Translations under genes and position numbers: made by a program
Part shown: one piece after another, positions 3,674 through 12,634 of the stretch
Numbering within the stretch: position 1 is the stretch's first letter
Layout: every line of letters begins with the position of its first letter
Notes under the pieces: generated by a model
The model's input: only the letters and a program-made list of their open reading frames with translations
What the model was told of the DNA's origin: nothing
The model's database searches: none
Source: Maricaulaceae bacterium EIL42A08
Lineage (GTDB): Bacteria; Pseudomonadota; Alphaproteobacteria; Caulobacterales; Maricaulaceae
NCBI GenBank assembly: GCA_024178355.1
Contig: JAMZNZ010000002.1
Coordinates: 1-64,000 of the forward strand
Reading direction: 5' to 3'
Length of the DNA: 64,000 nt

Positions 3674-5482
3674 TTAAGCCGCGCCTTTTTCAACCGCTTT
3701 GACCCGCTCACCAAGCGCCTCGGCGATCTGGCTGATCGGCGTCTTCCAGTCGCGGAATTTCTCCGGCACGAAGAGCTGGCTGCCCGGCATCCAGGTCAGG
3801 CGGTCGGTGCCAAAGGTTGTCCACTGGGTTTTGGCGGGAGAAAGCAACAGGCTTTCTGCGCCACAGTGGGCCCCCATGGTCAGCGAAGCGTTGACCTGTC
3901 CGACCATGACATCACACAGAGAGCCCAGGATGCCGACGCCTTCGAGATCATTCATCAGGTCCAGGTCTTCGATCTGGTGAATGGTGACGCCAAAGTCCTT
4001 GGCGCACTGGGCCAATTCTTCATCCACATCGCCATACTGCAGAGATACGAAGGTGCAGCCCGGCGTTTGCAGGACCGGCTTCCACATCTCGAACGGCGAG
4101 AAGTATTTGGTACGGTTGCCGGTCATCAGCTTTGATTTCCAGCAGAAGCCGACACGCAGGCCGGCAGGCAGGGCATCAAGTTGAGCCTTGATGGCATCAA
4201 TGCGGGACGGGTCCGGTGTGAGCACTTTACGGGCCTCGGGACCGGGGAAGTCTTCAGGGGTCTGGCGGACTGCGCGCTCCATGGACCCGAGTGGGGCCCA
4301 CAGATCAGGTTTGAAAGTAGGTTCAGCGTCGAGCACGGAGCGGATCTGAACGCCTTCTTTAAAGATCGTGGCGTGGCGGCCGACATAGTCCAGCCTGGGG
4401 AAGCTGCGCTGCATCAAGTCTACGAGGCGACGCTCACAGACCAGAGCAATCGCCCCTTCAGGCCCAACAAGGTCAAACGCTTCATCGAGAACGGCCGACA
4501 TGGCGATTTCATCGCCGAGGCCCTGTTCAGCCACCAGCAGCAGGCGTTTGCCTTTGATGGCGGCGGGGTCTTCGCCGGACCAGTATGGGGCTTTGACGAT
4601 GAATTCGACGCGCTTTGGATAGAGCGGATCCATGCGCCGTTCGTATTTCTGCCAGCCTTCTTTGAGCTCGCCCTTGGCAAACAGTGCCAGCGCCATGCCG
4701 TGTTCGATGATAACCTGATCGGCCGCAGAGGGGTTCATGGTGAGCGATTTGCGCCAGAGCGCGATTGCCTCATCAAGCTCGCCGAGCAGATCAAGGCAGA
4801 AAGCCAGATTGTGGTAGCCGCGGGCAAAGTCCGGACGCAGGCGCAGCGCTTCCTGATAGAAGGTCACAGCCTGTTCTGGATCACCGCTTTCCAGCAACGT
4901 CGTGCCGAGTGAGTTCCACAGGTCGGGGTTTTCCGGATCGGTGTAGATGGCCGAGCGCAGCAGCTCCATACTGTCTTCAAACTTCTGCTGATCACGCAGA
5001 ATACCCGCCAGGTTGGACACAGCACCCTTGGCATTGGGTGCCATCTGGTGATGCAGGCGCAGGAACTTCTCCGCAGCCTCCAGCATATCCAGCTTCCACG
5101 CGACCATGCCCAGATTGAGATAGAGGTCGGCGTTATTGGGATCGTGCTTGAACGCTTCCTCATAACAGTTGAGGGCCGCCGACAAACGTCCGAGCCGCTC
5201 CAGCGCGAGGGCCATACCCTGATAGGCGAGGCCGAAGTTTGGAGCTGCATCAATCGCCTTCAGGCAAAGCTGACCAGCCTTTTTGGCCGCTGCCGGGCCG
5301 TCGTCCATGATCTTGACTGCACGGCGGATCAGACTGACTGCCTTCGCAGGAGCTGCCTTGGCCGCGCGGTCACCAAGGGCTGCATCCAGGGCCGCTTGCG
5401 CGCCGGTGCGCGGGACATCGACCTGACGAAGCGGGGCTTCAGCTTCGGCATTCAGTTCGGCATCGAGATTGAAAGTCGCCAT
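3674..5482 (-). CDS. flmG: TPR glycosyltransferase for flagellin (FlmG/FlbA-like)
   Basis: A 602-residue soluble protein. An alanine-rich N-terminus is followed by TPR repeats from about residue 60 to 300 (for example YQGMALALERLGRLSAALNC, LYLNLGMVAWKLDMLEAAEK, LWNSLGTTLLESGDPEQAV). The C-terminal half, about 310-595, has the glycosyltransferase B fold seen in heptosyltransferase and O-GlcNAc transferase relatives (LLLVAEQGLGDEIAMS, SLQYGDVDEEL, TMGAHCGAESLLLSP). This layout matches Caulobacter FlmG (older name FlbA), in which the TPR part binds flagellin and the GT part adds pseudaminic acid. It stands back to back with flbT and flaF and next to the flagellins and Pse genes, which strongly supports the same job here. 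Donor specificity is inferred. Confidence 0.85.
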   Translation of the reverse strand: MATFNLDAELNAEAEAPLRQVDVPRTGAQAALDAALGDRAAKAAPAKAVSLIRRAVKIMDDGPAAAKKAGQLCLKAIDAAPNFGLAYQGMALALERLGRLSAALNCYEEAFKHDPNNADLYLNLGMVAWKLDMLEAAEKFLRLHHQMAPNAKGAVSNLAGILRDQQKFEDSMELLRSAIYTDPENPDLWNSLGTTLLESGDPEQAVTFYQEALRLRPDFARGYHNLAFCLDLLGELDEAIALWRKSLTMNPSAADQVIIEHGMALALFAKGELKEGWQKYERRMDPLYPKRVEFIVKAPYWSGEDPAAIKGKRLLLVAEQGLGDEIAMSAVLDEAFDLVGPEGAIALVCERRLVDLMQRSFPRLDYVGRHATIFKEGVQIRSVLDAEPTFKPDLWAPLGSMERAVRQTPEDFPGPEARKVLTPDPSRIDAIKAQLDALPAGLRVGFCWKSKLMTGNRTKYFSPFEMWKPVLQTPGCTFVSLQYGDVDEELAQCAKDFGVTIHQIEDLDLMNDLEGVGILGSLCDVMVGQVNASLTMGAHCGAESLLLSPAKTQWTTFGTDRLTWMPGSQLFVPEKFRDWKTPISQIAEALGERVKAVEKGAA

Positions 5483-5538
5483 GGAACTCTCGCGGGGCTT
5501 GGATCATCTGGATTGTTACCCAATCGGAACCGCTTCGA

Positions 5539-5553
5539 TTAAGGCTTTGCTAA
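5539..5553. promoter_or_regulatory. Possible CtrA-like site, TTAA-N7-CTAA
   Basis: TTAA (5539-5542), seven bases, then CTAA lies between the divergent flmG and flbT genes. The CtrA consensus is TTAA-N7-TTAA, so there is one mismatch. Position and lineage fit, but such a motif can occur by chance. Confidence 0.25.
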
Positions 5554-5677
5554 TGATTGACGCCTTGCTCGACAAAACCGCACACCGGTGAAACCCTTTG
5601 TTCACCGTGTCGATGGAAGCTGCGTCGGTGAATCACATGAATGGGGCAGAATTCCTGCCTGGCAAACGGAGACGGCT

Positions 5678-6088
5678 ATGCCGCTCAAACTGTCCTTGAA
5701 GCCTGGTGAGCGCTTTGTGCTGAACGGCGCGGTTGTTGAAAACGGGGACCGGCGTGCAACGCTTATCCTGCAGAACAAAGCCAGCGTGCTGCGTGAAAAA
5801 GACATCATGCAGGAGCACGAGGCCGATACACCGGCCAAGCGCATCTATTTCCCGGTCATGATGATGTATCTCTCGTCATCGTCCCAGGATGGGCTCTATG
5901 ACGCCTTCGTCCTTCGCATGACCGAGTTCATGAATGTTATCAAGAACCCGGATGTGCTCACCGATTGCGTCACCGTCAGCCGCGAGGTGATGAGCGGTGA
6001 GTATTACAAAGCGCTTCTGCGCTGCCGTAAGCTCATTGCTTATGAAAAAGAGCTGATGTCTCCAGACGGGGACGGAGACAAGAAATAA
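5678..6088 (+). CDS. flbT: FlbT, post-transcriptional repressor of flagellin synthesis
   Basis: A 136-residue protein matching FlbT through its whole length: MPLKLSLKPGERFVLNGAVV, an EKDIMQEHEADTPAKRIYFP segment and the helical C-terminus. In Caulobacter FlbT binds the 5' leader of flagellin mRNA and promotes its decay until the hook is complete. I chose ATG at 5678, preceded by GGAGA at 5668-5672 and starting at the conserved MPLK; the frame is open further upstream but that part is not FlbT-like. The stop overlaps the flaF start by one base (TAATG), so the two are translationally coupled. The flagellin leaders in this window carry repeated small hairpins that could be its targets. Confidence 0.95.
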   Translation: MPLKLSLKPGERFVLNGAVVENGDRRATLILQNKASVLREKDIMQEHEADTPAKRIYFPVMMMYLSSSSQDGLYDAFVLRMTEFMNVIKNPDVLTDCVTVSREVMSGEYYKALLRCRKLIAYEKELMSPDGDGDKK

Positions 6089-6456
6089 TGTCCTATCAGG
6101 CCTATCAGCGCACTAGCGCCCGGTCTGAAGACCCGCGCTCCACTGAATACCGCCTTCTGGGTCATGTGACCCGCGCGCTTATGGATGTGCGTGAGATCAA
6201 GGCTAGCGAAATCCGCAAACGCGCCGAGGCGCTGGACTGGAACCGTCGGGTCTGGTCAGCTTTCGCGGCTGATTGTGCCAATCCCGACAACGGACTGCCT
6301 GAAGCGCTCAGGGCGTCGATCATTTCGCTATCGATCTTTATTTCTAAAGAGACCTCCACCGCCATGCGGGGTGAAGGCGATATCGACATGCTGATTGATC
6401 TGAACCGCACCGTGATGCAGGGGCTTGAGCCGGGCGCTCAGGCTGCGGCTGGATAG
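6088..6456 (+). CDS. flaF: FlaF, flagellin synthesis regulator
   Basis: A 122-residue protein of the FlaF family. It starts MSYQAYQRTSARSEDPRSTE and has the conserved WNRRVWSAFAADCANPDN and LPEALRASIISLSIFISKET segments. FlaF is needed for flagellin production or secretion and acts in opposition to FlbT in Caulobacter. It overlaps flbT by one base and lies just upstream of the first flagellin gene, the usual order in this lineage. The 377-bp gap to the flagellin holds a palindromic repeat, a CGGCAA half-site and a sigma-54 promoter. Confidence 0.95.
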   Translation: MSYQAYQRTSARSEDPRSTEYRLLGHVTRALMDVREIKASEIRKRAEALDWNRRVWSAFAADCANPDNGLPEALRASIISLSIFISKETSTAMRGEGDIDMLIDLNRTVMQGLEPGAQAAAG

Positions 6457-6584
6457 ACCACTGGGTCAGGCGGATTTTTCGTCCTGAAGTGCGCCGAACT
6501 CTGCGCGACTATGGAACATGTGATGTTTTGATCCCGGACGCGACGTGACCTGGGGACCTATACATATTCTTGAGGGGGCGGCAG

Positions 6585-6607
6585 GTCCCGGATCGACTCC
6601 GGGGTGA
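6585..6607. repeat. Short palindromic repeat between flaF and the first flagellin
   Basis: GTCCCGGATCGACTCCGGGGTGAC forms a short stem (CCCGGA against TCCGGGG). It is a relative of the repeat at 761-780. The flanking intergenic DNA contains no gene I can support. Confidence 0.5.
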
Positions 6608-6620
6608 CGCCTCGCCTGCT

Positions 6621-6626
6621 CGGCAA
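6621..6626 (+). promoter_or_regulatory. Possible FlbD (ftr) half-site CGGCAA
   Basis: CGGCAA, followed by ATT but without a good second arm, lies 126 bp upstream of the sigma-54 core of flagellin A. The full form CGGCAA-N3-TTGCCG occurs upstream of flagellin B. Distance and sequence suggest an enhancer half-site. Confidence 0.35.
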
Positions 6627-6746
6627 ATTTGTTCAGGTGGGCTGAAGCTGCCGGGCCGTTTGCGCCGCGCGGTGGTGTCCTCACGAGGTGCCATTTCAAC
6701 GCACTGATTTTCAATATGTAATTTCTATTCTCCTTGCGGGTTCCGC

Positions 6747-6760
6747 GGCACGGCGTTTGC
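6747..6760 (+). promoter_or_regulatory. Sigma-54 promoter of flagellin A
   Basis: GGCAC-N5-TTGC with exact GG-N10-GC spacing (GG at 6747-6748, GC at 6759-6760). The predicted start of transcription is near 6772, giving a leader of about 62 nt. Flagellin genes of this lineage are sigma-54 and FlbD dependent. Confidence 0.8.
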
Positions 6761-6773
6761 GGTTGCTCGGTTA

Positions 6774-6824
6774 GGACAAAATGTCCACCGGTCGAGAATT
6801 GACCGTTCGCTTCCAGAATGGAGG
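6774..6824 (+). promoter_or_regulatory. Flagellin A leader with three small hairpins
   Basis: Three stem-loops can be drawn in order. The first is GGACA-AAA-TGTCC (6774-6786). The second is CGGTCG-AGAAT-TGACCG with one G-T pair (6789-6805). The third is CTTCC-AGAAT-GGAGG with one T-G pair (6810-6824), whose right arm is the ribosome binding site. Loop AGAA recurs in the other flagellin leaders. FlbT binding here is inferred from Caulobacter. Confidence 0.5.
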
Positions 6825-6833
6825 AACCCCACA

Positions 6834-7661
6834 ATGACAACTTCGGTGAACACCAATCCAGGAGCGATGATCGCGCTCCAGAACCTGAACAAGACGAATA
6901 TGGAACTGTCTCAAGTGCAGAACCGTATCAATACCGGCCTTGAGGTAGCAGGTGCCAAGGACAATGGCGGCTTGTACGCCATCGCTCAGCGCATGCGGTC
7001 TCAGGTGGCTGGCTATGGTGTCGTTCAGCAATCTCTGGACCGCGGCGAGGCGACGCTTGACGTTGCTCTGGCCGCGGGTGAGGCGATCTCTGACCTCCTT
7101 ATTGAAATGAAGGAGAAGGCGCTCGGCGCAGCCGACACGTCGCTTGATACCCAGTCTCGTACGGCCCTGAATGAAGACTTCAAGGCTCTGCGCGATCAGA
7201 TCACGACGATCGTCGACAATGCTGAGTTCAATGGTCTCAATCTGATCGATGGCTCGACAACGGCCTTCACGGCGTTGGCAAACCAGGATGGATCGAACAC
7301 AATCACGGTGACCTCGGAGAATATGGCTCTGTCGGGATCCATTGTGACGGTGACTTCGACCGCCTCGTTCGCGACCGCTACGCAGGCTGACAACATCGCG
7401 TCTCAGATCGGTACATCTTTGGATAACGTCAACGAATCGCTCGCGCGCCTCGGGACGAAATCCAAGGCGCTTGAGGTTCACTCTTCTTTCGTCACCAAAC
7501 TGTCTGACTCGCTGGAGAAGGGGATCGGCAATCTGGTGGACGCGGATCTGGCACGCGAATCGGCCCGGCTCCAGTCGCTGCAGGTCAAGCAGCAGCTGGG
7601 TGTCCAGGCGCTTTCCATCGCCAATTCGATGCCGCAGTCGGTTCTGTCTTACTTCCAGTAA
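6834..7661 (+). CDS. Flagellin (copy A)
   Basis: A 275-residue flagellin of the short Caulobacter FljK/FljL type. The N-terminal D0/D1 helix is NTNPGAMIALQNLNKTNMEL and continues to INTGLEVAGAKDNGGLYAIA. The C-terminal D1/D0 region ends ADLARESARLQSLQVKQQLG then VQALSIANSMPQSVLSYFQ. The central 100 residues are serine/threonine-rich and variable, the likely glycosylation surface. ATG at 6834 follows GGAGGA at 6820-6825. There is no signal peptide; flagellins leave through the flagellar export channel. It has its own sigma-54 promoter and terminator, so it is a single-gene unit. It differs more from copies B and C than those differ from each other. Confidence 0.95.
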   Translation: MTTSVNTNPGAMIALQNLNKTNMELSQVQNRINTGLEVAGAKDNGGLYAIAQRMRSQVAGYGVVQQSLDRGEATLDVALAAGEAISDLLIEMKEKALGAADTSLDTQSRTALNEDFKALRDQITTIVDNAEFNGLNLIDGSTTAFTALANQDGSNTITVTSENMALSGSIVTVTSTASFATATQADNIASQIGTSLDNVNESLARLGTKSKALEVHSSFVTKLSDSLEKGIGNLVDADLARESARLQSLQVKQQLGVQALSIANSMPQSVLSYFQ

Positions 7662-7678
7662 GTCGTTGGGACAAAGGG

Positions 7679-7714
7679 CCGGGGTCTTCCGCAAGGAAGG
7701 CCCCGGTTTCTTTT
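7679..7714 (+). terminator. Rho-independent terminator of flagellin A
   Basis: CCGGGGTCTTCC and GGAAGGCCCCGG form a 12-bp stem with a GCAA loop and one T-G pair, followed by TTTCTTTT. Confidence 0.9.
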
Positions 7715-7782
7715 GCCATGCCGCAGCGGTAACTCAAAATTAACGCTCTGAATTCGCGTGTGATTCTTCACCCTCTGTTAAG

Positions 7783-7849
7783 CGGCGATATTTGCCGGGT
7801 CGGCAGTTTTTACCCAGCAATACGGCGGCGGAAGCGGCAATTTTTGCCG
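7783..7849. promoter_or_regulatory. Two ftr-like palindromes upstream of flagellin B
   Basis: CGGCGA-TAT-TTGCCG at 7783-7797 has one mismatch. CGGCAA-TTT-TTGCCG at 7835-7849 is a perfect inverted repeat. They share a 3-bp spacer and lie 156 and 104 bp upstream of the sigma-54 core. This is where FlbD enhancer (ftr) sites sit in Caulobacter flagellar promoters. FlbD binding is inferred. Confidence 0.6.
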
Positions 7850-7938
7850 GGTTGAAATCGCGTCACCCCTTCTCGAAAACTAAAAACTTCAACCTTTTCA
7901 GCGCTTAAGTGAGATTTTTGAATCTCTCACGCGAAACT

Positions 7939-7952
7939 GGCCCCGACCTTGC
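7939..7952 (+). promoter_or_regulatory. Sigma-54 promoter of flagellin B
   Basis: TGGCCCCGACCTTGC with exact GG-N10-GC spacing (GG 7939-7940, GC 7951-7952). The predicted start is near 7964, giving a 68-nt leader. Confidence 0.8.
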
Positions 7953-7965
7953 GATGCATCACTGC

Positions 7966-8024
7966 GGGCCAGAAGGCCCTGCGCGCAAAATGCACGCATT
8001 CACATACGTAGAAACGTAAGGGAG
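7966..8024 (+). promoter_or_regulatory. Flagellin B leader with three small hairpins
   Basis: GGGCC-AGAA-GGCCC (7966-7979) sits at the predicted mRNA 5' end. TGCGCGCA-AAA-TGCACGCA with one mismatch follows (7980-7998), then perfect TACGT-AGAA-ACGTA (8005-8018), directly before the AGGGAG ribosome binding site. Loop sequences match those in the leader of copy A. Confidence 0.5.
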
Positions 8025-8031
8025 CCAAGAA

Positions 8032-8856
8032 ATGGCTACGATTAATACCAATCCGGGCGCGATGATCGCCCTGCAAAACCTCAACAAGACCAACATGGAC
8101 CTCCAGCAGGTTCAGCAGCGTATCAACACCGGTCTTGCGGTTTCCTCGGCAAAAGATAACGGCGGCGTCTACGCGATCGCTCAGTCCATGCGTGCTGATG
8201 TTGGCGGCTACAAGGCCGTGAACCAGTCGCTGGATCTGGTCCAGTCCACGGTTGACGTGGCTCTGGCCGGTGGCGAGGCCATCTCCGATCTCATGGTTGA
8301 GATGAAGGAAAAGGCTCTGGCCGCAGCTGACACCTCTCTGGACGCCGCGTCGCGCACTGCACTGAACGAGGACTTCCAGGCTCTGCGTGACCAGATCGGC
8401 ACCATCGTTGCCAACGCTGAGTTCAACGGCACCAACCTCATTTCCAACGGCGCGACCGATATCACGGCGCTGGCCAATGCGGACGGTTCCAACGCCATCA
8501 CCATCGGTGCTGAAGACCTGAGCCTGACGGGTACCACCCTGACGATCACGGCTGGCACCCAGATTAACACGGCAACCAATGCGTCGAATGCGGCCGCTGC
8601 TATCGGCACCTCGCTCGACAACTTGAACTCTGCCCTGGCTCGCCTGGGTACCGGTTCCAAAGCACTCGAAATCCACAAGACCTTCGTCGGCAAGCTGTCT
8701 GACACCCTGGAGAAGGGTATCGGCAACCTGGTCGACGCGGATCTCGCCAAAGAATCGGCTCGCCTGCAGTCTCTGCAGGTCAAGCAGCAGCTGGGTATCC
8801 AGGCGCTTTCGATCGCCAACTCGGCTCCGAGCTCGATCCTGGGCTACTTCCGATAG
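8032..8856 (+). CDS. Flagellin (copy B)
   Basis: A 274-residue flagellin. Its N-terminus (MATINTNPGAMIALQNLNKT, then NMDLQQVQQRINTGLAVSSA) and C-terminus (QLGIQALSIANSAPSSILGYF) are almost the same as copy C. The central domain (about 140-190) differs, rich in N, T, A and D. The start is set by AGGGAG at 8019-8024 and by identity with copy C. It has the best enhancer and promoter set in the cluster, so it is a good candidate for the major filament protein (inference). Transcription could run on into copy C: only a hairpin without a T-tract separates them. Confidence 0.95.
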   Translation: MATINTNPGAMIALQNLNKTNMDLQQVQQRINTGLAVSSAKDNGGVYAIAQSMRADVGGYKAVNQSLDLVQSTVDVALAGGEAISDLMVEMKEKALAAADTSLDAASRTALNEDFQALRDQIGTIVANAEFNGTNLISNGATDITALANADGSNAITIGAEDLSLTGTTLTITAGTQINTATNASNAAAAIGTSLDNLNSALARLGTGSKALEIHKTFVGKLSDTLEKGIGNLVDADLAKESARLQSLQVKQQLGIQALSIANSAPSSILGYFR

Positions 8857-8870
8857 GCCTTGGCCAAATT

Positions 8871-8948
8871 CCGCCAGCCGCTGAACAGAATGCTCAGCGG
8901 CTGGCGGGACTTCGCGCGCAAAATGCGCGTCCAACACCGTAGAAACGG
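8871..8948 (+). promoter_or_regulatory. Flagellin B/C intergenic hairpins and copy C leader
   Basis: A perfect 14-bp stem (8871-8884 with 8894-8907) has the loop ACAGAATGC and no T-tract, so it may be an mRNA processing or stability element more than a terminator. Two hairpins follow: CGCGCA-AAA-TGCGCG (8915-8929) and CCGT-AGAA-ACGG (8937-8948). They match the two 3' hairpins of the copy B leader. I see no GG-N10-GC promoter here. Confidence 0.55.
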
Positions 8949-8969
8949 AAAAATTGAAGGAGCCAAGAA

Positions 8970-9797
8970 ATGGCGACGATCAACACAAACCCGGGCGCAA
9001 TGATCGCCCTTCAGAACCTGAACAAGACCAATATGGATCTTCAGCAGGTTCAACAGCGTATCAACACGGGCCTGGCGATTTCTTCTGCCAAGGACAATGG
9101 CGGCGTTTACGCGATCGCACAGTCCATGCGCGCTGATGTTGGTGGCTACAAGGCTGTGAACCAGTCTCTTGATCTGGCTATGTCCACGGTTGACGTGGCG
9201 CTGGCCGGTGGCGAGGCCATCTCCGATCTCCTGGTTGAGATGAAAGAGAAGGCGCTTGCTGGTGCTGACACCTCCCTCGACACGGCGTCTCGTACGGCCC
9301 TGAATGAAGACTTCAAGGCTCTGCGCGATCAGATCACGACCATCGTGAGCAACGCCGAGTTCAACGGCACCAACCTTATCGACGGTTCCAACACCGCCGG
9401 CATCTCGGCTCTGGCCAATGCTGATGGTTCGAACACGCTCACCATTGACGACGAAGACTTCAGCCTCGGCGGCTCGATTGTCACCGTTGCAGCCACGGCT
9501 TCCTTCGGGACCGCTGCTGCAGCTTCGACCCAAGCTGCTGCGATTGAAACCTCGCTTGATAACCTCAACGCTTCGCTGGCCCGTCTGGGTACCGGTTCGA
9601 AGTCGCTTGAAGTTCATAAGACGTTTGTCGGCAAGCTGTCTGACTCCCTGGAAAAGGGTATCGGTAATCTCGTCGATGCTGATCTGGCAAAAGAATCGGC
9701 TCGCCTGCAGTCCCTGCAGGTGAAACAGCAGCTGGGTATCCAGGCGCTGTCGATTGCCAACTCGGCACCGTCTTCGATCCTGGGTTACTTCCGGTAA
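8970..9797 (+). CDS. Flagellin (copy C)
   Basis: A 275-residue flagellin, nearly identical to copy B over the first 95 and last 80 residues and different in the middle (around residues 135-190, with ISALANADGSNTLTIDDEDF). ATG at 8970 follows GAAGGAG at 8956-8962. It carries a copy of the B leader hairpins, showing that the duplicated unit included the leader. No sigma-54 core is seen directly upstream, so it is probably cotranscribed with copy B. A GC-rich hairpin follows the stop. Confidence 0.95.
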   Translation: MATINTNPGAMIALQNLNKTNMDLQQVQQRINTGLAISSAKDNGGVYAIAQSMRADVGGYKAVNQSLDLAMSTVDVALAGGEAISDLLVEMKEKALAGADTSLDTASRTALNEDFKALRDQITTIVSNAEFNGTNLIDGSNTAGISALANADGSNTLTIDDEDFSLGGSIVTVAATASFGTAAAASTQAAAIETSLDNLNASLARLGTGSKSLEVHKTFVGKLSDSLEKGIGNLVDADLAKESARLQSLQVKQQLGIQALSIANSAPSSILGYFR

Positions 9798-9811
9798 TCC
9801 ACTCTGAGCGG

Positions 9812-9863
9812 GCGGGCGGCCAGGGTCGTTCGTGGGGTTCTACCCCGGCCGCCCGCTTAGCTT
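9812..9863 (+). terminator. GC-rich terminator-like hairpin after flagellin C
   Basis: GCGGGCGGCC (9812-9821) and GGCCGCCCGC (9847-9856) form a perfect 10-bp stem with a 25-nt loop, followed by TTAGCTTT. The T-tract is weak, so some read-through into the FlaG-like gene is possible. Confidence 0.6.
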
Positions 9864-9900
9864 TGTCGAAGTTTTGAGATGATTGGGACGACAGCAACAG

Positions 9901-9940
9901 AAGGAGGCACCGAACGCTCAATAAGCGTTCTGTGAGAGGA
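9901..9940 (+). promoter_or_regulatory. Leader of the FlaG-like gene with a hairpin and two possible RBS
   Basis: A strong AAGGAGG (9901-9907) lies 36 nt before the ATG. The hairpin GAACGCT-CAATA-AGCGTTC (9912-9930) follows it, then AGAGGA (9935-9940) only 3 nt from the ATG. The layout could make translation depend on the hairpin. Confidence 0.35.
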
Positions 9941-9943
9941 ACG

Positions 9944-10318
9944 ATGGATAATGCGACGCTCATGTCGGGAACGGCTCTGAGCCGCCCTACGTGGGACGCA
10001 TCCGCCAAGGGGGTATCAGACCCCGTGACGAGCGGCTCACAAGGTGAGGCACAAGAGACAAAGGCCCGCGAAACCAAGCGCGAGGCCTCTAACGCGATTC
10101 CAAGCGTGGATCAGATCGAGGTGCTGCGCGCCGAGATCAACGCCAGCTCCAGATCCCGGCTTCAGATTGAACGCGCCGAAGACGCCGGCCGCTTCATCTA
10201 CCGGATTTTTGACCCGGAGACGGGTGAAACCGTGCGCCAGTGGCCGCCAGAGAAATATGTCGAACTGGTCGCCTATCTTCGTGGGCGCGAAGGGGGGCTG
10301 GTCGACGAGCGGGCCTGA
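9944..10318 (+). CDS. FlaG-family flagellar protein
   Basis: A 124-residue protein. The first 60 residues are polar and disordered-looking. The C-terminal half has the FlaG family signature: RLQIERAEDAGRFIYRIFDP followed by ETGETVRQWPPEKYVELVAYL. FlaG proteins influence filament length in other bacteria by an unclear mechanism. The gene sits between flagellins C and D. I chose ATG at 9944; a GTG four codons upstream is also open. The name FlaG is used for the Pfam-type family here; Caulobacter literature uses similar names for other genes, so no symbol is given. Confidence 0.8.
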   Translation: MDNATLMSGTALSRPTWDASAKGVSDPVTSGSQGEAQETKARETKREASNAIPSVDQIEVLRAEINASSRSRLQIERAEDAGRFIYRIFDPETGETVRQWPPEKYVELVAYLRGREGGLVDERA

Positions 10319-10323
10319 TTGCC

Positions 10324-10338
10324 CGGCAAAAACGACCG
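10324..10338 (+). promoter_or_regulatory. Possible FlbD (ftr) half-site upstream of flagellin D
   Basis: CGGCAA-AAA-CGACCG has one perfect arm and a half-matching second arm with the same 3-bp spacer as the sites at 7783-7849. It lies 125 bp upstream of the sigma-54 core at 10449. Confidence 0.4.
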
Positions 10339-10448
10339 CTCTGGCAGGCAAGAATTAACCGTAACGACCCGCTACACGCTGAGGTGTGGTGGGTTGATTT
10401 GCGTCTAAGGCTCTGAAAAAGCGTGATATGTGCCGTCTTGGCACAGTT

Positions 10449-10462
10449 GGCCCGCTTATTGC
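10449..10462 (+). promoter_or_regulatory. Sigma-54 promoter of flagellin D
   Basis: TTGGCCCGCTTATTGC with exact GG-N10-GC spacing (GG 10449-10450, GC 10461-10462). The predicted start is near 10474, giving a 55-nt leader. Confidence 0.75.
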
Positions 10463-10497
10463 TCATTAAGGATGTGAACGGCCGTCGAAAGCGGTTT

Positions 10498-10523
10498 GGC
10501 CCACAAACAGAATGAGCGGAGCC
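10498..10523 (+). promoter_or_regulatory. Possible RBS-sequestering hairpin of flagellin D
   Basis: GGCCC (10498-10502) can pair with GGAGCC (10518-10523) with one bulged A. This hides the GGAG ribosome binding site and leaves AGAAT (10509-10513) in the loop. It is weaker than the hairpins of copies A and B but has the same features. Confidence 0.35.
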
Positions 10524-10528
10524 TTGTC

Positions 10529-11362
10529 ATGACGCTGAGCGTCCACACCAATACTTCGGCGATGATCGCCCTTCAGAACCTGAACAAGACCAATACCGAC
10601 ATGGTCGAGGTTCAAAACCGCATCAATACCGGTCTGAAAGTGTCCGGCGCGAAAGATGACTCCTCCGTCTTCGCCGTGGCTCAGGGAATGCGGTCTGATA
10701 TTGGCGCGCTGGGCTCGGTCCGGTCCTCGCTGGATCGCGCCGTGTCAATCGGTGACGTTGCAATCGCAGCGGGCGAATCCATTTCCGACCTCCTCATCCA
10801 GATGCGTGAGAAGGCGACGGCAGCCATGGACCCGTCCATCGACACCTTCTCCCGCCAGGCTTTTGACGGTGACTTCAAGGCGCTGCTGGAACAGGTCGAA
10901 GTCATCCTCGACAACGCCGAATTTGATGGTGCTAACCTGCTCAACGGCTCGCTGACCAACGGCATCGCCTTCCTGGCAGATGCCAATGCGACCCGGACAG
11001 TGACGCTGGGTGCCCAGGACATGTCGATTTCTGGCTCCGTTATCACAATCGCCTCCAATGCCAGCCTTGGGACGGCCACGCTTGCGGGTCAGGTTCAAAG
11101 CGCCATCAAGATCAGCCTGGATAACGTCAACCAGGCGCTGGCTGATCTGGGTTCGGATCTGAAGAAGATGGAAGCGCATCGCACCTTTGTCGGCAAGCTG
11201 ACCGATAGCCTTACTGAAGGCGTTGGCAACCTCGTTGATGCCGACATGGCCAAGGAAAGCGCCCGATTACAGGCCTTGCAGGTTAAACAGCAGCTTGGGG
11301 TTCAGGCCTTGTCCATCGCCAACACCGAGCCGCAGATCATCTTGTCGCTGTTCAACGGCTAA
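10529..11362 (+). CDS. Flagellin (divergent copy D)
   Basis: A 277-residue flagellin, the most divergent of the four. It starts MTLSVHTNTSAMIALQNLNK and ends QALSIANTEPQIILSLFNG. It keeps the D0/D1 core but differs at many conserved positions (KVSGAKDDSSVFAVAQGMRS, SLDRAVSIGDVAIAAGESIS). The start at 10529 is chosen for the GGAG at 10518-10521 and for alignment with the other copies; 11 codons upstream are open but not flagellin-like. It has its own sigma-54 promoter and terminator. In relatives with several flagellins, divergent copies occupy the hook-proximal filament; that role is inferred. Confidence 0.93.
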   Translation: MTLSVHTNTSAMIALQNLNKTNTDMVEVQNRINTGLKVSGAKDDSSVFAVAQGMRSDIGALGSVRSSLDRAVSIGDVAIAAGESISDLLIQMREKATAAMDPSIDTFSRQAFDGDFKALLEQVEVILDNAEFDGANLLNGSLTNGIAFLADANATRTVTLGAQDMSISGSVITIASNASLGTATLAGQVQSAIKISLDNVNQALADLGSDLKKMEAHRTFVGKLTDSLTEGVGNLVDADMAKESARLQALQVKQQLGVQALSIANTEPQIILSLFNG

Positions 11363-11388
11363 ACCTGAGCCGACGAGAAATCACCCCG

Positions 11389-11421
11389 CCGCCCGGTCCT
11401 TTGGCCGGGCGGTTTTCGTTT
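11389..11421 (+). terminator. Rho-independent terminator of flagellin D
   Basis: CCGCCCGG and CCGGGCGG form a perfect 8-bp stem with an 8-nt loop, followed by TTTTCGTTT. It lies only 38 bp before pseC, so pseC needs a promoter in a very short space or read-through. Confidence 0.9.
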
Positions 11422-11458
11422 AAGGACCCGCATACCCGACTCAGCGCATGTTAATCCT

Positions 11459-12634
11459 ATGACACAAGCCTTTCTGCCCTATGGGCGTCATTCGATCGAT
11501 GAGGGTGACATCGCCGCGGTAACACGTGTGCTGCGCGGTGATTTCCTGACGACAGGACCAGAAATCCCTGCTTTTGAGGTGGAATTCGCCGCTGCGGTCG
11601 ATGCACCACATGCGGTCGCCTGTAGTAGTGCGACGGCCGCGCTTCATATGGCGCTGGCTGGACTAGGGGTGGGTGAGGGCGATGTGTGTATCGTGCCGTC
11701 TATCACCTTCCTCGCGACAGCCAACGCGTCACTCTATTGCGGCGCTGACGTGGTGTTTGCCGACGTTGACGCGGCGACCGGTCTGATGACACCGGAGACT
11801 CTGACCGAGGCGCTAAACCTTGCTGGGGAGCGTGCGAGGGCTGTATTGCCGGTCCACCTGGCCGGTGCCCTGTGTGACATGACCGGTATAGAAGCGGTGG
11901 CTCGCAAGGCGGGGCTTTTGATCGTCGAAGATAGCTGTCATGCGCTTGGCACAGTGGGTCCAGACGGCCCAGCGGGCAATTGCGCTCGGTCCGATGCGGC
12001 GACCTTCTCCTTCCATCCTGTCAAAACACTGGCAGCCGGTGAGGGGGGTATGGTGACCACCCGCAAACCGGAGCTGGCCAGAGCCACCTCACAGCTCCGC
12101 AGCCATGGCGTTGAACGTGATATAGCCGCTTTCACGCGTTTTAATGGCAAGGCGGAGCCCTGGACCTACGAGATGCAGGCGCTTGGGTATAACTATCGCA
12201 TGCCGGATATCAATGCCGCGCTCGGGCGCTCACAGCTGGCAAAGCTGGGCTTGTTTGCTGATCGTCGCAGACACCTCAGTCAGCTCTATCGAGAGCAATT
12301 GGCCCACCTGGCTCCCTTAGTGCAAGCACCCGTCGCGCAGCCTCCCGTTGACGCTTGCCGCCACCTGATGAACGTTGCGATCGACTTTGACGGTGCGGGG
12401 GTGACGCGGGCCGAATTGATGGATCGATTGCGCAGTCGTGGGGTTGGGAGTCAGGTTCACTATACCCCAGTTCACACGCAACCCTATTACGTGACGCTCT
12501 ATGGCGAGATGACCCTGACGGGCGCGGAGACCTATTACGCCAGGACGCTGTCGCTGCCCCTATACCCTGATATGGCCGACGGCGATGTCGGCCGAGTTGC
12601 TCAGGCGCTTGCTGAAAGCCTGGGCGGTCCATGA
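11459..12634 (+). CDS. pseC: PseC-type aminotransferase (pseudaminic acid step 2)
   Basis: A 391-residue PLP enzyme of the DegT/DnrJ/EryC1 family. The PLP lysine is K189 in FSFHPVKTLAAGEGGM. VACSSATAALHMAL binds the cofactor phosphate, and VEDSCHALG carries the ring-stacking region. The start MTQAFLPYGRHSIDEGDIAA matches PseC, which makes UDP-4-amino-4,6-dideoxy-N-acetyl-altrosamine from the PseB product. It heads an eight-gene + operon with stop/start overlaps (ATGA with the next gene). ATG at 11459 has no clear RBS and follows the flagellin D terminator by 38 bp. Confidence 0.9.
   Translation: MTQAFLPYGRHSIDEGDIAAVTRVLRGDFLTTGPEIPAFEVEFAAAVDAPHAVACSSATAALHMALAGLGVGEGDVCIVPSITFLATANASLYCGADVVFADVDAATGLMTPETLTEALNLAGERARAVLPVHLAGALCDMTGIEAVARKAGLLIVEDSCHALGTVGPDGPAGNCARSDAATFSFHPVKTLAAGEGGMVTTRKPELARATSQLRSHGVERDIAAFTRFNGKAEPWTYEMQALGYNYRMPDINAALGRSQLAKLGLFADRRRHLSQLYREQLAHLAPLVQAPVAQPPVDACRHLMNVAIDFDGAGVTRAELMDRLRSRGVGSQVHYTPVHTQPYYVTLYGEMTLTGAETYYARTLSLPLYPDMADGDVGRVAQALAESLGGP

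Follow-up and report, generated by a model that had tools for sequence, protein, structure and literature searches.

What on a flagellin message does FlbT recognize? For Caulobacter, passages of two sources (PMC4347634, PMC3930126) report that FlbT contacts flagellin leaders and represses, and a table in one of them, a review (PMC4347634), has an empty entry for the target motif and lists the mechanism as unresolved. We address this question in the flagellar locus of Maricaulaceae bacterium EIL42A08, within the first 64,000 nucleotides (nt) of contig JAMZNZ010000002.1 (the window), where flbT, flaF, flagellins A, B and C, flaG and flagellin D follow one another, all on the plus strand. The leaders of flagellins A, B and C carry tandem small hairpins with ARAA loops, and we consider it likely that these leaders are a tandem-hairpin operator RNA for FlbT, or for FlbT together with FljJ, working like a CsrA leader. 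A preliminary description of the window had drawn AGAA-loop hairpins in all four flagellin leaders; they are present in A, B and C and absent from D.

Tandem ARAA-loop hairpins in three flagellin leaders

Hairpins were counted where a stem of at least 4 base pairs (bp) closes an ARAA tetraloop or an ARAAN pentaloop. By this strict count leaders A, B and C contain three hairpins each, with stems of 4-6 bp, and dinucleotide shuffles of the same leaders contain means of 0.03 (A), 0.04 (B) and 0.11 (C), reaching three in 0/2000 shuffles for each. The plus strand of the whole window has 25 strict hairpins, 9 of them in the four leaders (320 nt in total); on the minus strand there are 17, three of them clustered opposite 7760-7849. 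Folded as a whole, leaders B and C give z values against shuffled sequence of -2.00 and -5.42, the latter including a long stem in the B/C gap that is described below.

All of the hairpins that follow lie on the plus strand. Upstream of flagellin A (6834-7661), hairpin 1 (GGAC-AAAAU-GUCC, 6774-6786) is followed by hairpin 2 (loop AGAAU, 6789-6805) and hairpin 3 (CUUCC-AGAAU-GGAGG with one U-G pair, 6810-6824), whose right arm is the entire GGAGG of the Shine-Dalgarno sequence. The leader of flagellin B (8032-8856) opens with GGGCC-AGAA-GGCCC (7966-7979), continues with a hairpin with an AAAAU loop, which folding places at 7980-7998 as previously drawn, but with one internal mismatch, and with UACGU-AGAA-ACGUA (8005-8018), immediately 5' of the Shine-Dalgarno sequence as the preliminary description had it, and ends with AGCCA-AGAAA-UGGCU (8023-8037), which has the start codon inside. 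In the leader of flagellin C (8970-9797), a hairpin with an AAAAU loop (8914-8930) precedes CCGU-AGAA-ACGG (8937-8948) and GCCA-AGAAA-UGGC (8962-8974), the last again with the start codon inside. These two start-codon hairpins are additions to the earlier list, and the seven stems already placed in A, B and C (6774-6786 to 8937-8948) agree within a base on recomputation. Hairpins with an AAA loop had been set apart as a class shared by A, B and C; their stems stand, but the class does not, since the loop is the pentaloop AAAAU closed by C-G.

A conserved loop on covarying stems

Leaders were extracted from 79 named relatives, giving 229 in all plus one hit without a start (L053). The loop counts leave out the window copy (L001), a false start at 5494 of L064 and flagellin D, and draw on the 226 that remain, 223 of them distinct; D re-enters in the later counts by leader type. 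Since related Maricaulis and Oceanicaulis genomes supply many of the leaders, the counts are not independent. In the distinct leaders ARAA stands in 403/1141 hairpin loops, compared with 6/1182 when these leaders are read on the antisense strand, 39/3290 in coding DNA and 196/7267 in shuffles. When hairpins are selected blind to the loop (stem at least 5 bp, loop 4-5 nt), the loop begins with ARAA in 179/241 hairpins of non-D and 8/46 of D-type leaders, D-type being called by sequence, from HTN or QTN close to the N-terminus, with Caulobacter FljJ added for this count. Positions 1-4 of the pentaloops (n=166) are A in 145, R in 157, A in 149 and A in 153 cases, and ARAA and ARAAN loops are usually closed by C-G.

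The loop is better conserved than the stem, and one loop kept on many stems is the pattern expected under selection by a bound protein. This argues against the hairpins acting alone as intrinsic stabilizing or attenuating structures, such as protection of the 5' end from RNase E or a general slowing of initiation, with no specific protein involved, an explanation that we regard as quite unlikely.

The stems vary in a compensated manner. With CARAANG as sole anchor, a test that does not presuppose pairing and is thus not circular, pairing extends over the next three positions outside the closing C-G in 75/138 distinct combinations of flanks, with 35 distinct stems observed; swapping arms between leaders 2000 times yields a mean of 11.0 and a maximum of 22. 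Anchoring on ARAAN instead gives 69/232 paired against a re-pairing mean of 12.6 and maximum of 26. A covariance-model alignment has 97.4% of cells paired and double changes at all 11 pairs, against 32-54% in slid controls, though it is fitted to the structure and so leans toward pairing. The first covariance model (R1), built from 13 leaders, finds 140 matches at E<=0.5 in 724 kb comprising the window, the 79 relatives and three Caulobacter-like stretches. Among these, 139 end at most 30 nt from a non-D-type flagellin start, a figure that includes the 13 seed leaders by construction; the lone match without a listed start nearby, in L062, sits 85 nt from the locus end. Tandem hairpins of the kind in leaders A-C are an RNA element conserved by compensation, and the stems of A, B and C themselves are maintained by compensatory change in relatives.

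Anatomy of the leader

The two upstream hairpins are regularly spaced, with a loop-to-loop distance of 16-17 nt in 56/113 leaders measured, and CCAGAAYGG-like loops, whose GG is part of the Shine-Dalgarno sequence, lie 19-23 nt further on in 65/100. A hairpin of at least 3 bp covers the Shine-Dalgarno sequence or the start codon in 158/188 leaders of non-FljJ flagellins versus 0/44 of the FljJ clade (defined below). A Shine-Dalgarno-like stretch occupies a right arm in 75/188 non-FljJ leaders, and a hairpin of at least 4 bp encloses the start codon in 91/183 non-D leaders. The arms of the start-codon hairpin covary between leader and codon 2, as in CGTC/GACG, GGCC/GGCC and TACC/GGTA.

Transcription starts are predicted, not mapped, at 12 nt downstream of a sigma54-like box, and in 89/127 box-bearing leaders the first hairpin begins 0 to +2 from this point. 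On the plus strand of the window, such boxes precede flagellins A (6746-6760, predicted start ~6772), B (7938-7952) and D (10448-10462), called against what we take to be the sigma54 promoter consensus; no sigma54-type box is seen in the B/C gap. The predicted start of A places hairpin 1 at the 5' end, which would keep the hairpins within the mRNA. A hairpin 1 at the predicted 5' end and a last hairpin mostly over the Shine-Dalgarno sequence or start codon are what a purely intrinsic structure would offer, yet D-type leaders are exempt although 42/44 of them also have a sigma54-like box.

The same anatomy bears on a reading at the level of DNA, in which the inverted repeats are bound by FlbD, the activator of sigma54, or by some other transcription factor that acts as a dimer. 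Enhancers of the FlbD type are known to occur close to promoters of this kind, and near-palindromes do lie upstream of B at ~7783-7851. The loop is one-sided, however, as the antisense count given above shows, the arms vary with compensation, and the elements extend into codon 2. Moreover, among 22 flagellins lying closely downstream of another flagellin, the box is found in 0 and at least two hairpins in 21, so the element persists in gaps that have no promoter box, which argues for action in RNA. Sites for a DNA-binding dimer are accordingly a highly improbable account of the repeats.

Exemption of the FljJ-like flagellin

Flagellin D (10529-11362, plus strand) is an FljJ-like paralogue by tree position and by identity. 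In a tree of the 224 full-length flagellins out of 232, D clusters with FljJ of the Caulobacter crescentus-like genome G116 in a clade of 44 (support 0.79), with A, B, C, FljK and FljL outside. D is 56.3% identical to G116 FljJ and 39-48% identical to the other Caulobacter flagellins (at least 230 residues). The FljJ label of the G116 gene was assigned from its divergence and position; another flagellin there matches FljL of PDB 9cem with 100% identity across 271 residues, and a further one is closest to FljK entries. Gene order in G116 is the same, flbT-flaF-fljL-fljK-flaG-fljJ, so that D and fljJ both come after flaG, and the two FlbT proteins share 61.7% identity.

At least two hairpins of 4 bp are found in 1/44 members of the FljJ clade versus 145/180 other flagellins of the tree set. 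By the sequence rule, which yields a D-type group also of 44 that differs from the clade by a few genes, the counts in the window and relatives are 1/44 D-type versus 151/183 non-D leaders. In G116 the element is present on five leaders (fljL-type, fljK-type and three further paralogues; R1 E 0.0012 to 0.045) and absent from fljJ.

D was considered as a bearer of the element and rejected: its leader (10473-10528, plus strand) has no ARAA hairpin, and no member of its clade has one over the Shine-Dalgarno sequence or start codon. The hairpin formerly placed at 10498-10523, with the ribosome binding site as its right arm, was not confirmed (fold z 0.25 against shuffled sequence), and that arrangement holds for A (6810-6824) only. 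D-type leaders, including window 10473-10505 and those of relatives, often have by eye one different hairpin, for example CCGCYGAAnGCGG, upstream of the Shine-Dalgarno sequence.

What makes the exemption informative is the grouping of D with FljJ, which is reported as required for FlbT repression. According to passages of one study (PMC7591256), FljJ is the only flagellin with which FlbT interacts, the others are repressed only when FljJ is present, and repression ends when FljJ is exported. An operator-free leader on the co-repressor gene would fit this FlbT-FljJ logic.

Association with FlbT across Alphaproteobacteria

The window's flbT (5678-6088, plus strand; Pfam FlbT E=1.3e-46), a putative trans-acting regulator, lies just upstream of the flagellins, as already described. 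A second covariance model (R2) was run over 385 genomes of the class, of which 135 have flbT, 235 bear flagellins and 133 have both, with strict filters under which weak matches are lost; matching genomes number 87/385 at E<=0.1, but the analysis relies only on the cut-offs 1e-4, 1e-3 and 0.01. At E<=1e-4, 22 genomes match and flbT is present in 22/22, compared with 111/213 of the remaining flagellin-bearing genomes, a difference whose significance Fisher tests overstate, the genomes being related. At E<=1e-3, flbT is present in 26/28 matching genomes. Inspected by eye, 22 of 30 R2 loci lie directly before a flagellin start, one of them being leader A of the window. The remaining eight comprise one that runs off its contig, where a second copy precedes a flagellin, two before an open reading frame (ORF) of 81 residues with flbT-flaF, one ~280 nt before a flagellin match, and four in loci that lack any flagellar gene (E 1.4e-4 to 1.8e-3).

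These counts suggest which protein reads the loops. A protein other than FlbT, such as an RNase, Hfq or flagellin itself, is an unlikely reader: FlbT is the protein that the Caulobacter sources cited above report at flagellin leaders, flbT is present in every genome matching at the strictest cut-off, and the element also occurs before the ORF that overlaps flbT-flaF. From sequence evidence we infer that FlbT binds the loops, and the proposal that the hairpins are FlbT recognition elements retains circumstantial support for A-C, from the leader element shared with Caulobacter, the 22/22 co-occurrence and the absence from the FljJ clade, and loses it for D.

Several observations weigh against assigning the hairpins to FlbT, or against the element as drawn. 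Firstly, 12/48 genomes matching at E<=0.01 are without flbT (36/48 have it), which would favor another protein, although chance matches mount at this cut-off; two genomes at E<=1e-3 also lack flbT (G526, G280), neither match lying before a flagellin, and in one flbT-bearing genome (G490) the match is likewise not before a flagellin. Secondly, 107/133 genomes with flbT and flagellin have no R2 match at E<=1e-3 (26 match), so that the form is lineage-bound or diverging, or was missed by the strict filters; what FlbT reads in the unmatched genomes must be a diverged form or a different target. Thirdly, leader A by itself folds no better than shuffled sequence (z -0.69), and ARAA tetraloops as sole anchor give 25/252 paired against a re-pairing mean of 13.2 and maximum of 25, barely above re-pairing. 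In addition, a strict hairpin is missing from 10/180 flagellins that fall outside the FljJ clade; seven of the ten come last among the flagellins of their locus, where FljJ-like genes lie, and Caulobacter FljL is also among the ten, its leader having three 3-bp hairpins. Finally, the FlbT of Brucella is described, in parts of sources that include PMC4347634, as an activator that promotes flagellin production; the sign of FlbT control may differ by lineage.

The 81-residue ORF mentioned above is of unknown family and overlaps flbT-flaF in two genomes of one family (L125 1501-1801, L127, L145). The element before it hints at FlbT autoregulation in that family.

A proposed mechanism and its relation to known systems

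In the mechanism that we favor, control by FlbT of a tandem-hairpin operator, FlbT would bind the hairpin loops, most likely while carrying FljJ (D in this locus), the flagellin that serves as co-repressor. Bound FlbT would clamp the initiation region shut and would mark the message for decay. Because the D mRNA is without hairpins, the co-repressor could be made while the other flagellins are silent. Once FljJ is exported through a completed hook-basal body, FlbT would release the leaders and the structural flagellins would be translated; filament production would probably be held off until the base of the flagellum is built.

A protein-operated leader with repeated hairpins is a known kind of regulator; relative to the Rfam scan and the openly licensed literature consulted, the loop code is new. 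The closest likeness is the FlbT-responsive fljK leader of Caulobacter crescentus, itself an FlbT target, and G116 combines the same gene order with tandem hairpins on fljL- and fljK-type leaders. The hairpin repeat, the start-codon form and the FljJ exemption come from the present analysis. A second likeness is to CsrA/RsmA-bound leaders and the CsrA-FliW-flagellin switch, which also use several small 5'-leader hairpins, the last at the Shine-Dalgarno sequence, and tie repression to flagellin export. CsrA recognizes GGA in hairpin loops. The loops here are ARAA or ARAAN rather than GGA, flagellin acts as co-repressor, which reverses the logic, and FlbT is no CsrA by profile.

A presumably flagellar context is shared by flg-Rhizobiales RNA (RF01736). 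It is listed as a candidate structured RNA of Rhizobiales in part of one source (PMC2864571), and RF01736 has no match at E<=10 in window 5000-12000 and none at gathering score in the 12 of 79 relatives scanned. A search of the same interval with all of Rfam gives five matches at E<=10. No match reaches the gathering score or falls on the ARAA hairpins; one of the five, on the minus strand of the 8871-8907 stem, is to a microRNA model and scores 22.5 bits where the cut-off is 70. The 12 relatives likewise have nothing at gathering score for any family.

With a short repeated loop code that is lacking on the single paralogue needing to escape, the question of the FlbT target becomes testable with few mutants. 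The loop code is also a genome-searchable mark for a flagellar assembly checkpoint.

FlbT and CsrA

Part of an earlier paper (PMC4894983) proposes FlaF/FlbT as a system analogous to CsrA-FliW. The two regulators are nearly exclusive in our sample: of the 235 flagellin-bearing genomes, 128 have FlbT only, 64 CsrA only, 5 both and 38 neither, and CsrA (PF02599) has 0 matches in the genome of the window. This near-exclusion points to a common role in flagellated bacteria for two proteins that show no detectable similarity.

FlbT was also considered as a relative of CsrA, on an N-terminal strand order and an L-x-L..GE..V-x-R-E pattern that look alike by eye, and rejected when profile comparison gave no support. 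In hhalign, narrow profiles and wider ones of 81 FlbT and 30 CsrA sequences, the latter being those caught by a pattern among 50 fetched loci, align with a probability of 0.03-0.8 percent, and 32/150 column-shuffle controls score at least as high; a very remote relation is possibly present. The predicted FlbT fold combines four short N-terminal strands at low confidence (residues 1-40, mean predicted local distance difference test score 63-68) with a confident four-helix bundle. The bundle (residues 50-128) resembles FliS among many other bundles, a likeness that is suggestive only, and the VIA-align rows cover mainly residues 50-135. Foldseek returns no match to the FlbT model at E<=0.001, CsrA is not among the VIA-align matches listed for it, and a Pfam scan of 41 FlbT proteins does not have CsrA among the 13 families listed. 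A sequence search of the PDB finds no FlbT relative; it gives one chance-level hit and, along the helical part, ribosomal L14 chains (E 0.017-0.032).

A broader and rather doubtful proposal is that FlbT is the alphaproteobacterial stand-in for CsrA, with an N-terminal beta domain that would read RNA, possibly a remote CsrA-like dimer beyond present profiles, and a FliS-like bundle that would sense FljJ, the whole reading repeated ARAA-loop hairpins including loops that present the start codon. If true, one protein would do the work of CsrA, FliW and FliS in other phyla, and this would explain the near-exclusion of flbT and csrA.

Other features of the locus

The remaining genes of the locus on the plus strand are flaF (6088-6456; Pfam FlaF 2.1e-34) and flaG (9944-10318; Pfam FlaG 3.7e-11). 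The B/C gap also contains, by folding, a very long stem on the plus strand (8871-8907) with CAGAAUG at its tip, right after the flagellin B stop codon and without a U-tract. The preliminary description had counted it among the leader hairpins; the stem and its tip are present, but several relatives keep a long stem at this position, by eye, with different tips and sequences, and we therefore treat it as a separate element. It is probably a 3'-end or processing hairpin and may protect or process the 3' end of the B mRNA.

Upstream of the promoter box of B, the near-palindromes in window 7760-7851 lie at ~7783-7799, 7801-7815 and 7833-7851 (CGGCGATATTTGCCG, GGCAGTTTTTACC, CGGCAATTTTTGCCG); they resemble what we take to be FlbD-type enhancer sites, a feature at the level of DNA. 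On the minus strand the same interval holds three ARAA hairpins, at 7760-7771, 7802-7814 and 7835-7849.

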